Assembly (NCBI GenBank): GCA_900764725.1
Contig: CAAFPB010000091.1
Span: 1-17,126 of the forward strand
Source of the DNA: an uncultured Catenibacterium sp.
GTDB taxonomy: Bacteria > Bacillota_I > Bacilli_A > Erysipelotrichales > Coprobacillaceae
Reading direction: 5' to 3'
DNA: 17,126 bases
Shown here: piece after piece, positions 5,107 through 10,178 of the stretch
Layout of the letters: every line of letters begins with the position of its first letter
Position numbering within the stretch: the first letter of the stretch is position 1
Translations under genes and position numbers: made by a program
The notes under the pieces: generated by a model
Databases searched by the model: none
What the model was told of the DNA's origin: nothing
Seen by the model: only the letters and a program-made list of their open reading frames with translations

Positions 5107-5784
5107 TTAGATTGAAGAATAGACCCTCTCTGCTTTAAAACTATAATATTGATTTCTTCCAATAATAATATGGTCCACTATATCTACATTCATCATTTTT
5201 CCAAGCTCTATGAGCTTTTGTGTCATATTAATATCTTCAGTAGAAGGATGGGCATCACCTGAAGGATGATTATGGACACAGATGATACTGACTCCATTAA
5301 AAGCAAGTGCTTCTCTAAATATTTCTCTTGCAGATACAATGGACATATTGACACTTCCTACAAATAAGGTCTTTTCCGCAATCAAACGATTATGATTATC
5401 TAAAATCATAATCAAAAAATGTTCCTGTGATAAATGTGACATCTTATTTTCCAAGTGATAAAAAACTTTAGCCGGATTATCATATACTTCATTCATATCT
5501 GTATGCATATTAATTCTTTTAGAGAATTCTAAAGCTGCCATAATACCTATTGCTTTGGCCTTATTAATTCCCTTAAAAGATAATAGCTTCGCAAAAGTAA
5601 TAGAATGAAAACCACTCATTCCATGTATTTCTTTTAATATTGTAGAAGATAAATCTAAAACTGACTGCTCCTTATTTCCCGTTCTTAATAATAACGCAAG
5701 AAGTTCTTCATCCGTCAATGATTCTATACCATTCAAGAGTGCTTTTTCTCTTGGTTGAGAAGCCTGTTCAAGTCCCTTGATCAT
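5107..5784 (-). CDS. radC: RadC-family JAB1/MPN domain protein (UPF0758)
   Basis: A 225-aa protein with an N-terminal helix-hairpin-helix region (about residues 50-85, GINKAKAIGIMAALE) and a C-terminal JAB1/MPN fold. The metal-binding signature is complete: HNHPSGD at 171-177 followed by PS and Asp184. The old DNA-repair assignment is disputed and the true substrate is unknown. A strong GAGGAGG precedes the ATG. The radC-mreC-mreD order is conserved in many Bacillota, and here radC opens the shape cluster. The upstream neighbour, 23 bases away, is a TnpB remnant and not maf or comC. Confidence 0.93.
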   Translation of the reverse strand: MIKGLEQASQPREKALLNGIESLTDEELLALLLRTGNKEQSVLDLSSTILKEIHGMSGFHSITFAKLLSFKGINKAKAIGIMAALEFSKRINMHTDMNEVYDNPAKVFYHLENKMSHLSQEHFLIMILDNHNRLIAEKTLFVGSVNMSIVSAREIFREALAFNGVSIICVHNHPSGDAHPSTEDINMTQKLIELGKMMNVDIVDHIIIGRNQYYSFKAERVYSSI

Positions 5785-5807: not shown

Positions 5808-6212
5808 TTAAGCATATGTTTTTACCACTTTGAATTCAATCCCATGCATTTTACATCTAACTTTCATTCTTATGACAAACTCATAATACTTTTGTAGAAA
5901 CCTTTGATCATTCTCAATAATTATTACAGAAGTCGGATTACTTTTTATTACTACACTAATACATTTATTCATGTATTCGTTATAAACATTATCTAATCTA
6001 TTCTCTATTTTATCTATCTTCTCTAAAAGTTTTTTACTATTATTTGAATTCTGTTCCTTTCTTGTTAGTCGTCTTTTTTGTCTTAATAGTTGCTTTTCTA
6101 ATTTCTTAATATTTTCTAATACATCTACCCTTTGTATGCTTAATCCATTTATTGTGAATATACATTCAACTATATCTAATTCAATTCTTACTACTCTATC
6201 AATTGTTTCCAA
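5808..6212 (-). pseudogene. Truncated TnpB-like (IS200/IS605 OrfB) remnant
   Basis: A 134-aa frame resembling the middle of TnpB nucleases. The basic coiled segment KKLEKQLLRQKRRLTRK (36-52) matches the KLxRxQRRLSRK region. The stretch YMNKCISVVIKSNP then IIIEND (80-102) matches the part ending in the RuvC-II motif IxIEDL. YEFVIRMKVRCKMHGIEFKV (110-129) matches the YEFRxKLxxKCxxxGI region. The N-terminal RNA-binding domains and the C-terminal zinc finger with RuvC-III are absent. The RuvC-I motif GIDLGI has become RIELDI, so the catalytic Asp is replaced by Glu11; Glu100 remains. It cannot be an active nuclease. It nevertheless has a TTG start with AAGGAAGGTG upstream and no internal stop, so a short protein may be made. 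No insertion-sequence ends are visible. The family assignment comes from remembered motif patterns. Confidence 0.65.
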
Positions 6213-6230: not shown

Positions 6231-6254
6231 TAAATAAGGGTGCGATTCGCACCC
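6231..6254 (-). terminator. Hairpin after the GG-peptide pair
   Basis: GGGTGCG and CGCACCC form a 7-bp GC-rich stem with a 3-nt loop (6238-6254), followed on the minus strand by TTATTTAT. The T tract is interrupted, so termination may be partial. It lies between the second peptide gene and the TnpB remnant. Confidence 0.65.
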
Positions 6255-6262
6255 TTCTCTTC

Positions 6263-6424
6263 TTATTTTCCCCATTCTAACGTGATAAGACGACCTAATC
6301 TGAGACGCCCCTTAGCAGATCTAAGTAGTTTTAATCCAGCAATTCCTAGTAATGCATAAACAATATATGTCAATGCACTACCCCCACAGATCTGTTCCTG
6401 GCTACTAACGGATAATTCGTACAT
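6263..6424 (-). CDS. Small double-glycine leader peptide 1 (bacteriocin-like)
   Basis: A 53-aa open frame missed by size cut-offs. The leader is MYELSVSSQEQICGG. Leu -12, Ser -11, Ile -4 and the Gly-Gly at -2/-1 fit the leader that C39-peptidase ABC exporters cleave. The predicted core (residues 16-53) has a hydrophobic stretch SALTYIVYALLGIAGLKLL and then an Arg/Lys-rich tail ending in LEWGK, net about +6. It is homologous to the peptide encoded just upstream (6467-6619): 27 of 50 ungapped positions are identical, including leader and hydrophobic block. The ribosome binding site GGGAGG lies five bases before the ATG, and a hairpin follows the stop. A class II (two-peptide) bacteriocin or secreted signal is the likeliest role; a non-secreted membrane peptide is the alternative. 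No exporter or immunity gene is adjacent. Confidence 0.75.
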   Translation of the reverse strand: MYELSVSSQEQICGGSALTYIVYALLGIAGLKLLRSAKGRLRLGRLITLEWGK

Positions 6425-6466
6425 ATTTTCCTCCCTTTCTAAAATATTGTAAATGAGACAAATAAA

Positions 6467-6619
6467 CTATTTCATCGTTATAACTCTTGGACCTCTTGGA
6501 TGTTTAAAATATGCTCTCAACAATTTCATACCAGCAACACCTAGAAGTGCATATATAATACGACTCATAACACTTCCCCCGTGAATCTGCTGTTGTCTTT
6601 TCGTAGATAGCTCGTACAT
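6467..6619 (-). CDS. Small double-glycine leader peptide 2 (bacteriocin-like)
   Basis: A 50-aa open frame, first of the peptide pair in transcription order. The leader is MYELSTKRQQQIHGG, with Leu -12, Ser -11, Ile -4 and Gly-Gly at -2/-1. The predicted 35-residue core has a hydrophobic half (residues 21-34, IIYALLGVAGMKLL) and a basic tail with KHPRGPR, net about +7 without His. The AAAGGAG site five bases before the ATG is well placed. The gap to its paralogue is 42 bases, so the two are probably co-transcribed. The two tails diverge while leader and hydrophobic block are kept, the pattern expected of two peptides processed by one exporter. Upstream is only the valS terminator and a weak promoter-like sequence (TTGAGT-N19-TATAGA). 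Confidence 0.75.
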   Translation of the reverse strand: MYELSTKRQQQIHGGSVMSRIIYALLGVAGMKLLRAYFKHPRGPRVITMK

Positions 6620-6676
6620 CTTTACTCCTTTCTGCCCCTCTACTATATCTATACGTCTAAAAAAATGATTTTACTC

Positions 6677-6703
6677 AAAAAAATCCCCAAAATGGGGATT
6701 TTT
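6677..6703 (-). terminator. Intrinsic terminator of valS
   Basis: AAATCCCC and GGGGATTT (6681-6688 with 6694-6701) form an 8-bp stem around a 5-nt loop. On the minus strand a run of seven T begins within the downstream arm. It starts a few bases after the valS stop and isolates the peptide genes from valS transcription. The A/T runs on both flanks could make it bidirectional. Confidence 0.85.
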
Positions 6704-6705
6704 AA

Positions 6706-9330
6706 TTAATTCATCTTAGCAAGTTTTTCTTTTGCAGCAGCATATTTAGAACGATAATCTTCTAACTTGGCTTTTTCTGCTTCTACTTTTGCAGCTGGTG
6801 CTTTAGAAGTGAAATTAGGGTTAGATAACATACCTTCACCACGCTTGATTTCACCTTCAAGCTTCTTGATTTCTTTTTCAACCTTTTCTTTTTCAGCTTC
6901 CATATCAATATACTGACCTAAGTCAATATTAAGTGTATTACCACCCTTGATAACTTCAGTCGCATTATTCTTGCTTGTTGGTACATTATATCCAACACAA
7001 GTTGCATTCACTAATTTGCTGACATAAGGTGCAATTTCCTTTAATAATGTTTCAAGATCATTCTGTTTAGTAGTAATTGTATAATCTACTTCAATGCTGT
7101 TCTTGATGACATAAGTATGTCTGATTTCTCTTACACCCTTAATAATATCAATTAAGTAAGCAAACTGATCATTAATTGTATCATTGTCATATTCTGGATT
7201 TGCTTCTGGCCATTTAGAAATAACGATAGATTCTTCATTATGTGGAATAGCCTGATAGATTTCTTCAGATACGAATGGCATGATTGGATGTAATAATCTA
7301 ACGATAGTATTTAATACATAAACAAGTGTATTCAATGCTGATTTCTTAGCTTCTTCATCATCACCTGTTAAATGAAGCTTAGATAATTCAATATACCAAG
7401 AACAGAAATCATCCCAGATGAAACGATATAATTCAGTTCCTACATTAACGAATTCAAACTTATCCATGTTTTCATCAACGCTTCTGATAACTTCATTTAA
7501 TCTATTTAAGATCCACTTATCAGCTAAGTTAAGTGTTGTATAATCTAATTCTTCTAACTTCTGATCTTCATCAATATTCATTAATACATAACGTGCACTG
7601 TTCCAGATCTTATTAATAAAGTTCCAAGTAGATTTTAATTTAGCTGGTACATAACGCATATCAGCTCCTGGTGAAGAGTTATTTAATAAGAACCATCTTA
7701 ATGAGTCAGCTCCATATTCATCAATAACATCCATTGGGTCAACACCATTACCTAATGATTTAGACATCTTACGACCCTGTTCATCTCTGATTAAACCATG
7801 AATTAAAACATTCTTAAATGGTCTTCTACCAGTAAATTCAATTGACTGGAACATCATACGGCTTACCCAGAAGAAGATAATATCATAACCTGTTACTAAT
7901 GTATCAGTTGGGAAATATCTCTTAAACATTGGATCTTCTGTATTAGGCCAGCCCATAGTTGAGAATGGCCATAAAGCACTTGAGAACCATGTATCAAGAA
8001 CATCTTCATCCTGAGTCCAGTTTTCTTCGTCTTTTGGTGCTTCTCTTCCTACATATAATTCACCAGTTTCATTGTTGTACCATGCTGGAATACGATGTCC
8101 CCACCATACCTGACGTGAAATACACCAGTCTTCAATGTTATTCATCCAGTTAGAGAATGTCTTTTCAAATCTTTCTGGTACGAAATCTACTCTATCATCA
8201 GTTTCCTGATTCTTTAATGCATTTTCAGCTAATGGCTTCATCTTTACAAACCACTGCTTAGATAAATAAGGTTCTACAATTGCATGAGAACGTTCTGAGT
8301 GACCTACTGAATGTACAATAGTTTCAATATGATCTACAACACCAGCTGCTTCAAAATCCTTTAATAAAGCTTCACGGCAATCAAAACGGTCCATACCTTT
8401 ATATTTACCAGCTAAATCATTCATAGTACCATCTTCATTCATACACTTAGGCATTGGAAGATTATACTTCTTTGCTAGCTGGAAGTCATTTGGGTCATGT
8501 GCTGGTGTACATTTCATTACAGCAGTACCAAAATCAAGATCAATATAGCTATCAGCCATGATTGGTAATTCATCACCATTAGCTGGGTTAATAGCCTTCA
8601 TACCAACATACTTCTTATATCTTTCATCATCTGGATGAACAAAGATTGCCTGGTCCGCAAACATTGTTTCTGGACGTGTAGTCGCAATGACTAAAATATC
8701 ATCAGAACCAACGATATGATAATTGAAGTAGTACATATGACCTTCAATATCTTCATGATATACTTCGATATTTGATAATGCTGTTCTTTGTACTGGGTCC
8801 CAGTTAATGATCTTTTCACCCTGGTAGATTAATCCCTTTTCATATAATCTAACAAATACTTCCTTAACAGCATCTGATAAACCTTCATCAAAAGTAAATC
8901 TTTCTTTTGAATAATCAAGTGATAGACCTAATTTAGCCCACTGTGCACGAATAATATCTGCATACTCTTCTTTCCATTCCCAGATCTTATCAACAAGCTT
9001 TTCTCTTCCTAAATCATAACGAGAAATACCCTGTTCTCTAAGTCTAGCTTCAACTTTAGCCTGAGTTGCAAGTCCAGCATGGTCCATACCTGGTAACCAT
9101 AATGCATCATAGCCCTGCATTCTCTTATAACGGATAATCATATCCTGCATAGTAGTATCCCATGCATGACCTAAATGTAATTTACCAGTTACATTAGGTG
9201 GAGGAATAACAATACTATAAGGCTTCTTTGTTAAATCACCTGCTTTAAAGTATTCCTTATCTAACCACTGCTGATATTTACCTTTTTCTACAGCTAAATG
9301 GTCATATTTAGTCGGTAACTCTTTCTTCAT
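6706..9330 (-). CDS. valS: Valyl-tRNA synthetase
   Basis: An 874-aa class Ia aminoacyl-tRNA synthetase charging tRNA-Val. The Rossmann domain holds PPPNVTGK and the HIGH-type motif HLGH (52-55). The editing (CP1) domain contains ATTRPETM (216-223) and HDPND (278-282). The KMSKS motif is at 521-525, followed by the anticodon-binding domain and a C-terminal coiled coil (about 805-874) typical of ValRS. The frame opens upstream at a TTG (9348), but that codon overlaps the AGGGGG ribosome binding site. The ATG at 9328-9330 has the right spacing and gives the usual [11 protein letters not shown] start. This start overlaps the end of the preceding gene by 23 bases, suggesting coupled translation. 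Regulation is through the valine T-box at 9959-10172. Confidence 0.97.
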
Positions 9331-9943
9331 TTGTTTCGTCCCCCTCAATAAATGATTCTTTATGTTCTCTAATATATTTAGTTAATTTAGGCATAAAATC
9401 AGTACCTGCAATCATAGTAATATATTCATGTGTGAAGTCTGAGAAATTATAAGAAGAATAATCACCCATATCTTCATCTTCTTCACCATTTTCCATGATT
9501 TCATTCAATCTTCTTGCACTCTTGACTAATTCAGCAATCTGTGGTTCACGTACATTATTGAAATAAGTTTCTAATTCATCCACATACTTTGCATAAGCAG
9601 GTGTATCAAAGAATGAACGGATTGTTTTAGTACTACTTACACATTCATTTAACTGACTGATACCATAGACAGTTCTTTCTTCCATATTTAATTTTTCTAA
9701 GAAGTTTTCATCATCTTCTTCTAAATCACCAATACGTGCAACAATTAAATTGACTAAGTCCTGATCACTGCATGCATCAAATTTATCTGATGTGAAGTGC
9801 TTGTTTTCATCTTTAAAATCCGCAAATCGTAATGCTTCTTCCATCTGTTTGTTTTTGATTGCTTTTGTTTTCTTATAATAGAAATAACCTAGTGTAACTA
9901 CAAATAAAGCAAAAGCAACCAATATCGGTGTTCTGTATTCCAT
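9308..9943 (-). CDS. Membrane-anchored acidic protein of unknown function
   Basis: A 211-aa protein I do not recognise. It has one N-terminal membrane helix (about residues 6-23, [20 protein letters not shown]) with a following basic patch, so the remainder should be cytoplasmic. The soluble part is acidic and mostly helical in character, with a Glu/Asp-rich loop (GEEDEDMGD, about 152-160) and no catalytic motif I can name. GGAGGAG six bases or fewer before the ATG is a good ribosome binding site. It lies between the T-box and valS and its 3' end overlaps valS, so it is co-expressed with valS and responds to uncharged tRNA-Val. That linkage hints at a translation- or valine-related role but does not prove one. 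Confidence 0.8.
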
Positions 9944-9958: not shown

Positions 9959-10172
9959 AAAAAAGAGCATGTGCATAAGGACGAATTGTATCGTGGTACC
10001 ACCTTATTTCACATACTCTGTATGTCTCTTTACTTTAACGCAGTATTACGTATCTGACTACTTCATTCATCAAATATGCTCCAAGGCTACCTTCCAGTCT
10101 TCACTCTCCTCTTTCACACCAACCAAGAGGTCTCTTTAAGAAGAATAACTGTACTCCTCCTCTTCAACGCTT
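9959..10172 (-). promoter_or_regulatory. T-box riboswitch, valine-specific
   Basis: The leader has the conserved T-box AAGGTGGTACCACG (9992-10005), whose UGGU pairs with an ACCA tRNA end. The terminator stem GAGTATGTG/CACATGCTC (10010-10018 with 9965-9973, one G-U pair) ends in six T. Stem I shows the AGTA strand of the loop-E motif (10152-10155) opposite GAA (10092-10094). One base after GAA comes GTA (10088-10090), a valine codon, matching valS downstream. The distal Stem I hairpin CCTCTT/AAGAGG encloses a GGTGTGAA loop. Uncharged tRNA-Val should favour the antiterminator and allow transcription of the 211-aa gene and valS. Shifting the specifier by one base would give Gly (GGT); the valS context decides for valine. 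Confidence 0.93.
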
Positions 10173-10178
10173 GTTATT

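Follow-up and report, generated by a model that had tools for sequence, protein, structure and literature searches.

Peptides with a double-glycine (GG) leader, and the transporters whose C39 peptidase domain goes with them, are usually read as parts of a bacteriocin or pheromone system. For substrates of the peptidase-containing ATP-binding cassette (ABC) transporters (PCATs), the leader consensus is L(-12), E(-8), L(-7), G(-2), G(-1), as set out in the part of the source that deals with it (PMC6959990). For the C39-type ABC transporter JCVI-syn3A 0401, the passage concerned states that no GG peptide candidate was identified and that none is apparent in other mycoplasmas (PMC6609329). The stretch of DNA considered here (the window), a 17,126-nucleotide contig (CAAFPB010000091.1) from an uncultured Catenibacterium sp., holds a tandem pair of GG-leader genes, for peptides A and B, between valS and radC. 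The pair is probably a local duplication within an old, vertically inherited gene family, whose product would be a membrane microprotein (a helix followed by a beta hairpin) that depends on a C39 enzyme of its own for maturation. Peptide gene and C39 gene both look like housekeeping genes, across a deep split. The evidence lies in the genes themselves, their synteny, the selection on them and the way in which leader and C39 have been lost together. New, within the literature searched, are the housekeeping setting, the loss of the ATPase from proteins that retain the catalytic residues, and the occurrence of the peptide in mollicutes.

Both open reading frames (ORFs) are real genes, and they are paralogous. 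A sequence-only reading of the window had picked them out as tandem paralogues of 50 and 53 codons with GG leaders, and so they are: 27 of 50 ungapped positions are identical (BLASTP E 3e-18), and the alignment score is reached by 0 of 5000 shuffles. The shared leader pattern that it described (MYELS, Ile at -4, Gly-Gly at -2/-1) is present in both, the predicted mature forms compute to the net charges of +6 and +7 that it gave for the cores, and the ribosome binding sites are apparent on inspection. Its bracketing of the pair by the valS terminator and a GC-rich hairpin is borne out by folding: both fold better than shuffles (-13.8 kcal/mol, z -2.2, and -14.9 kcal/mol, z -3.8, respectively). 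The surroundings of the pair show no excess of promoter-like sites over shuffles, and Rfam has no match at the locus. The codon-level conservation that was to be expected of genuine genes is there as well, with ratios of nonsynonymous to synonymous substitution rates (dN/dS) against the nearest relative, G001, of 0.062 for peptide A and 0.157 for peptide B, far below 1. In 12 further species pairs the ratio is 0.02-0.18 in 11 and saturated in 1. Between A and B the corresponding ratio of proportions (pN/pS), which comes from few sites, is lower in the leader (0.22) than in the core (0.62). Peptide A resembles the single copy of other genera and has the EW tail; peptide B has the same leader and helix, with a shorter basic tail from which the conserved EW has been lost.

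Neither peptide reaches any family cut-off in Pfam or NCBIfam, and no family in these libraries covers the peptide, relatives included; a gene carried by almost all members of a family can escape such libraries because it has only 40-80 codons. Among the literature matches listed, judged by titles and the openings of abstracts, there is no description of the peptide gene. Searching with the shorter peptide alone matched 6 of 40 relatives. A profile from a 21-sequence alignment finds the peptide in 40 of the 43 genomes of the window's own family (f1, to which Eggerthia catenaformis also belongs), so that homologues with GG leaders do exist in related genomes, as the sequence-only reading required. 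The three f1 genomes without a match are G010, G011 and G025; the last two are also without radC, and their peptide gaps are therefore probably assembly gaps. At all 39 f1 loci long enough to show it, radC lies downstream (the 40th, in G050, stops at a contig edge and is not in this count), if not always directly adjacent: in G001 a TnpB-like stretch intervenes.

A single family ORF is the state of 26 f1 genomes; the other 14 of the 40 have 2-4 ORFs in tandem, confined to 4 of the 18 f1 genera. The second copies are weak matches in G004, G014, G021, G054 and G057 (E 8e-5 to 0.005), and G055, which was not checked for a second copy, is left out of that count. In genus g4 (L030, L034, L036, L073, L076, L077, L078, L080) the second copy, of ~45 amino acids with a short Arg-rich end, is reminiscent of peptide B, yet it is placed after the main copy. 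Among 27 chosen main copies, M1, E3, L4, G14, S36, G39, E50 and W51 are invariant, and the tail conforms to the nearly invariant motif S..GR.S.P..I..EW (L188 was left out of alignment A7, and L158 out of A5). The leaders of the same 27 copies have L(-12) in 27, G(-2) in 27, G(-1) in 26 and E at -8 in 11.

The AlphaFold2 model of peptide A (mean predicted local distance difference test score, pLDDT, 79.9; predicted template modelling score, pTM, 0.43) consists of a leader helix at residues 6-13, a second helix at 17-35, and a beta hairpin (39-43/47-51) that carries the EW tail. A fold search with the model matched no solved fold (best E 5.3), and the best PDB sequence match has E 0.07. A similarity to DUF378, below cut-off and seen in 6 of 50 members, was rejected. 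The precursor would be a chain of 50-60 residues: first a 15-residue GG leader, next a helix long enough to span the membrane, and finally a short beta hairpin at the C terminus.

The sequence-only reading had noted that no exporter, immunity or kinase gene lies nearby, and inspection of the ORF list likewise recognised none in the window. The C39-peptidase ABC transporter that it placed elsewhere in the genome is found in relatives: 41 of the 43 f1 genomes have a C39 match, the others being G011, where the exporter's ABC part lies at a contig edge, and G002, which is 69% complete. G001 has one C39 match, with an ABC domain and Walker A, at a locus distant from the peptides; this is therefore the sole exporter candidate there. 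In f1 the C39 ABC transporter stands beside ybeY-cdd-era-recO (YbeY, cytidine deaminase, Era and RecO being named by NCBIfam on the G001 proteins): among 20 exporter loci fetched, ybeY and era adjoin in 18 and cdd in 16. The remaining two are a locus cut by a contig end and a second exporter, in G022 (L068:4486-6696), with a neighbour that is HlyD-like by inspection; the latter looks like an ordinary bacteriocin-type system.

The enzyme at this site comes in several forms. G010, the genome with radC and no peptide, has a 540-amino-acid protein at the ybeY site with C39 and no ABC_tran match, in the same Pfam search that finds ABC_tran in the intact exporter of L060. Other orders have a C39 domain with membrane helices, ~370-420 amino acids in all, and Pfam finds no ATPase in the two of these proteins tested. 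All 22 of the 22 ATPase-less C39 proteins compared have Gln7, Cys13, His85 and Asp101, and the predicted structure of such a protein matches PCAT1 (Foldseek E 4.2e-13, TM 0.55 over the model). Where the C39 protein is short or has no ATPase, ybeY adjoins its gene at 16 of 23 loci; four of the other seven were checked, and none has YbeY adjoining. In a second family of the same order (f2, which we take to be the Erysipelotrichaceae) the C39 protein is reduced to ~113-127 amino acids and starts close to Cys. The forms thus span a full exporter, C39 with a membrane domain, C39 alone, and none; the leader follows. The peptide's leader would be recognised, and cut after GG, by the C39 peptidase fixed beside ybeY-cdd-era-recO, and in f1 the full ABC exporter would deliver the mature peptide of 35-38 amino acids into or across the membrane.

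The occurrence of the leader tracks that of C39, and the two have been lost jointly. A wider profile, made from the f1 alignment and four f2 members, brings the count of peptide genomes to 92 of 294 in the order (40 of f1 and 52 of f2) and 70 of 395 in the class. Within f2, C39 is next to ybeY in all 16 of the 16 assessable genomes with a leader, against 0 of 18 leaderless ones (G199, G223, G225, G248 and the ambiguous G190 are left out of these counts), and on a YbeY+Era tree the leader has been lost twice. The Pfam C39 model misses G070, G101 and G111, and is therefore too blunt alone to show this linkage. Outside the order C39 is present in 44 of 45 peptide genomes. Leaderless f2 peptides keep the helix and the tail. 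They look like plain single-span proteins, which is also what might be expected if leader and C39 formed a membrane-insertion or quality-control device, in which C39 would bind the leader and so guide a small membrane protein, cutting or ATP use being secondary. The leader does persist where the ATPase is absent (the f8/f19 C39 proteins) and where Gln is absent (f2); the invariance of Gln, Cys, His and Asp in all of the ATPase-less proteins argues instead for retained cutting, and we consider such a device unlikely. As a matured membrane microprotein, the peptide would be a structural or regulatory resident of the envelope and not a toxin, because its tail is near-invariant, its gene sits at a housekeeping site and the lineages that lose the leader keep helix and tail; since leaderless forms persist, it would function in the membrane without need of export.

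The setting of the gene extends beyond f1. Downstream radC is seen in 37 of 39 f2 genomes viewed and, among non-mollicute genomes from other families, in 23 of 26, and valS is upstream in 9 of 12 closely read loci of other families. The ORFs of ~100 amino acids after radC in other orders are presumably rplU-ysxB-rpmA, judging from their size. Two weak matches in genomes that use genetic code 4, those of Metamycoplasma gateae and Mycoplasmopsis lipofaciens, have the same tail with TGA read as Trp and share GEIKTKD; radC was not found at the two mollicute loci searched for it, and C39 is present in both of the mollicutes checked for it. With a mollicute profile, 128 of the 320 genomes in the Metamycoplasma order give a peptide match, and a single family accounts for 119 of them. 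In the best 30 mollicute loci, TGA lies inside the match in 24 and a KW tail is present in 30 of 30; 13 are placed before rplU-rpmA, 15 near rpmE (10 of these also with lspA) and 2 by neither. Weak peptide matches without TGA (E 9e-7) also occur in G768 and G777, of family f5 in the mycoplasma order.

The peptide is accordingly a candidate substrate of the mycoplasma C39 transporters. A more far-reaching proposal, to which we give somewhat less than an even chance, is that of an ancestral maturation system shared by Erysipelotrichales-like bacteria, neighbouring orders and mycoplasmas, in which the ybeY-era C39 would cut the leader of one conserved microprotein, the ATPase would be dispensable, and maturation would not be for secretion of a weapon or a signal. 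The peptide would then be the missing C39 substrate of mycoplasmas, hidden by its size and by TGA coding for Trp. The question of what a C39 transporter does in mycoplasmas seemingly without a GG peptide, as it is put in the relevant passage on JCVI-syn3A (PMC6609329), becomes directly testable.

Two adjacent cationic GG-leader peptides are what a two-peptide class IIb bacteriocin would look like, with export by the ybeY-linked C39 transporter and an immunity gene elsewhere or unrecognised, and the sequence-only reading had proposed a class II bacteriocin of this kind. The tandem copies elsewhere in f1, several with a short basic second peptide, fit it, as do class IIb NCBIfam matches for two relatives, which stay below cut-off (E 0.018-0.019), and the label 'Bacteriocin' on two mycoplasma members in UniRef. 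The proposal is not supported, given a housekeeping locus across the family and beyond: most f1 genomes have a single copy at one fixed site, the tail is near-invariant, leaderless forms retain helix and tail, and the gene is present in reduced mycoplasma genomes. Inspection of the window's ORFs recognised no immunity gene, and inspection of the helices of A and B finds GxxxG in neither, only GxxG in both. Such a bacteriocin is improbable.

A GG leader with a C39 exporter is also the layout of ComC/ComA, and in streptococci radC belongs to the late competence genes, so that the mature peptide might be a pheromone, exported and sensed, for competence for instance. No histidine kinase or regulator was recognised among the window's ORFs, the peptide is a near-invariant membrane peptide across orders, and the fetched mollicute loci, two of which were searched for radC in vain, have ribosomal-protein neighbours; a pheromone is very improbable.

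Several observations do not sit easily with a conserved, C39-matured microprotein. Leader position -7 is Q in 21 and M in 6 of the 27 main copies, against Leu in the PCAT consensus; GG is found in only 6 of 16 f2 leaders, the rest having one Gly, and in f8 the last two leader residues are PG, VG or the like. Tandem copies, in 14 of 40 f1 genomes, are not rare. The linked loss in f2 amounts to two events, not 18, on a single tree without support values, and the count of 44 in 45 covers peptide-bearing genomes only. Leader-bearing f2 genomes G199, G223, G225 and G248 (79-89% complete) have neither a YbeY nor a Pfam C39 match; G190 combines a GG-like N-terminus with a ybeY site that has no C39, and its 2 kb stretch shows no radC; among the leaderless genomes, G088 and G121 encode large C39 exporters at other sites, and G099 and G128 show sub-threshold C39 traces. 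The f2 C39 protein is without Gln, with Cys, His and Asp kept in the 12 viewed. Only in f1 and in the two mollicutes examined does the C39 protein have an ATPase, and export is therefore not general.

The features of the window are collected in the table below. The valS gene of the window is 98% identical to that of G001, the nearest relative compared. A T-box leader (145 bits, 9974-10176, minus strand) lies ahead of an ORF at 9308-9943 and of valS. The TnpB fragment, which covers positions 175-266 of the 360 of NF038281 at 33 bits against a cut-off of 425, is no part of the peptide system. The interval from peptide to radC in G001 likewise holds a fragment, with 44% identity to that of the window (L001:785-1222). 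Four of ten f2 loci read closely have one ORF of 132-145 amino acids in this interval; the Pfam SPOR cut-off is passed by L086 only, L083, L166 and L167 being below it. A small SPOR-domain protein stands directly before radC in G111 (L086:2596-3009) and in G010 (L087:2190-2564), which retains it though without the peptide, and L006 has an ORF of like size at this site, below the SPOR cut-off.

Table. Features of the peptide locus and its neighbours, in window coordinates
Feature	Position	Strand	Basis and remarks
Peptide A	6263..6424	-	53 amino acids; ORF list and translation
Peptide B	6467..6619	-	50 amino acids; first of the pair in transcription order
Peptide A leader	6380..6424	-	15 codons; L at -12, I at -4, GG at -2/-1
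Peptide B leader	6575..6619	-	15 codons
Putative ribosome binding site GGGAGG, peptide A	6430..6435	-	Sequence inspection
Putative ribosome binding site AGGAG, peptide B	6625..6629	-	Sequence inspection
GC-rich hairpin 3' of peptide A, terminator-like	6236..6256	.	Folding
valS terminator hairpin, before the peptide pair	6679..6703	-	Folding
valS, upstream neighbour	6706..9348	-	ORF list, synteny
radC, conserved downstream neighbour	5107..5784	-	Pfam RadC 1.7e-42, synteny
TnpB gene fragment, IS200/IS605, between peptides and radC	5808..6212	-	NCBIfam NF038281 2.8e-8

Compared with the class IIb bacteriocins (the cerein 7B/lactobin family, TIGR03949), the peptides share GG leaders and hydrophobic cationic cores; they differ in staying below the family's cut-off, in having no recognised immunity partner and in a near-invariant tail that is modelled as a beta hairpin, and, unlike in class IIb clusters, the exporter gene of G001 lies far from the peptides. 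Assignment to the bacteriocins fails on immunity, GxxxG and distribution. Unlike a ComC-type pheromone gene, no histidine kinase and response regulator are recognised beside the pair on inspection of the window's ORFs. The best curated match of the exporter is NCBIfam NF045998, the Mbov_0121 family peptidase domain-containing ABC transporter of mycoplasmas, whose description names no substrate: the G001 protein scores 262.1 bits, below the cut-off of 500 bits, and NF045998 is also the best curated family for two of the ATPase-less C39 proteins. JCVI-syn3A 0401 is a mollicute C39 transporter as well; the mollicute peptides described here come from Metamycoplasma and Mycoplasmopsis. The likeness to the PCAT systems (PCAT1/CtA, LahT, ComA/ComC) lies in the 15-residue leader with L(-12) and GG(-2,-1) and in a C39 domain with conserved catalytic residues, and the f1 exporter aligns along the whole length of PCAT1. 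Unlike the PCAT systems, peptide and exporter are at two separate housekeeping loci with apparently vertical inheritance, the ATPase is missing in several lineages, and position -7 is Q or M.
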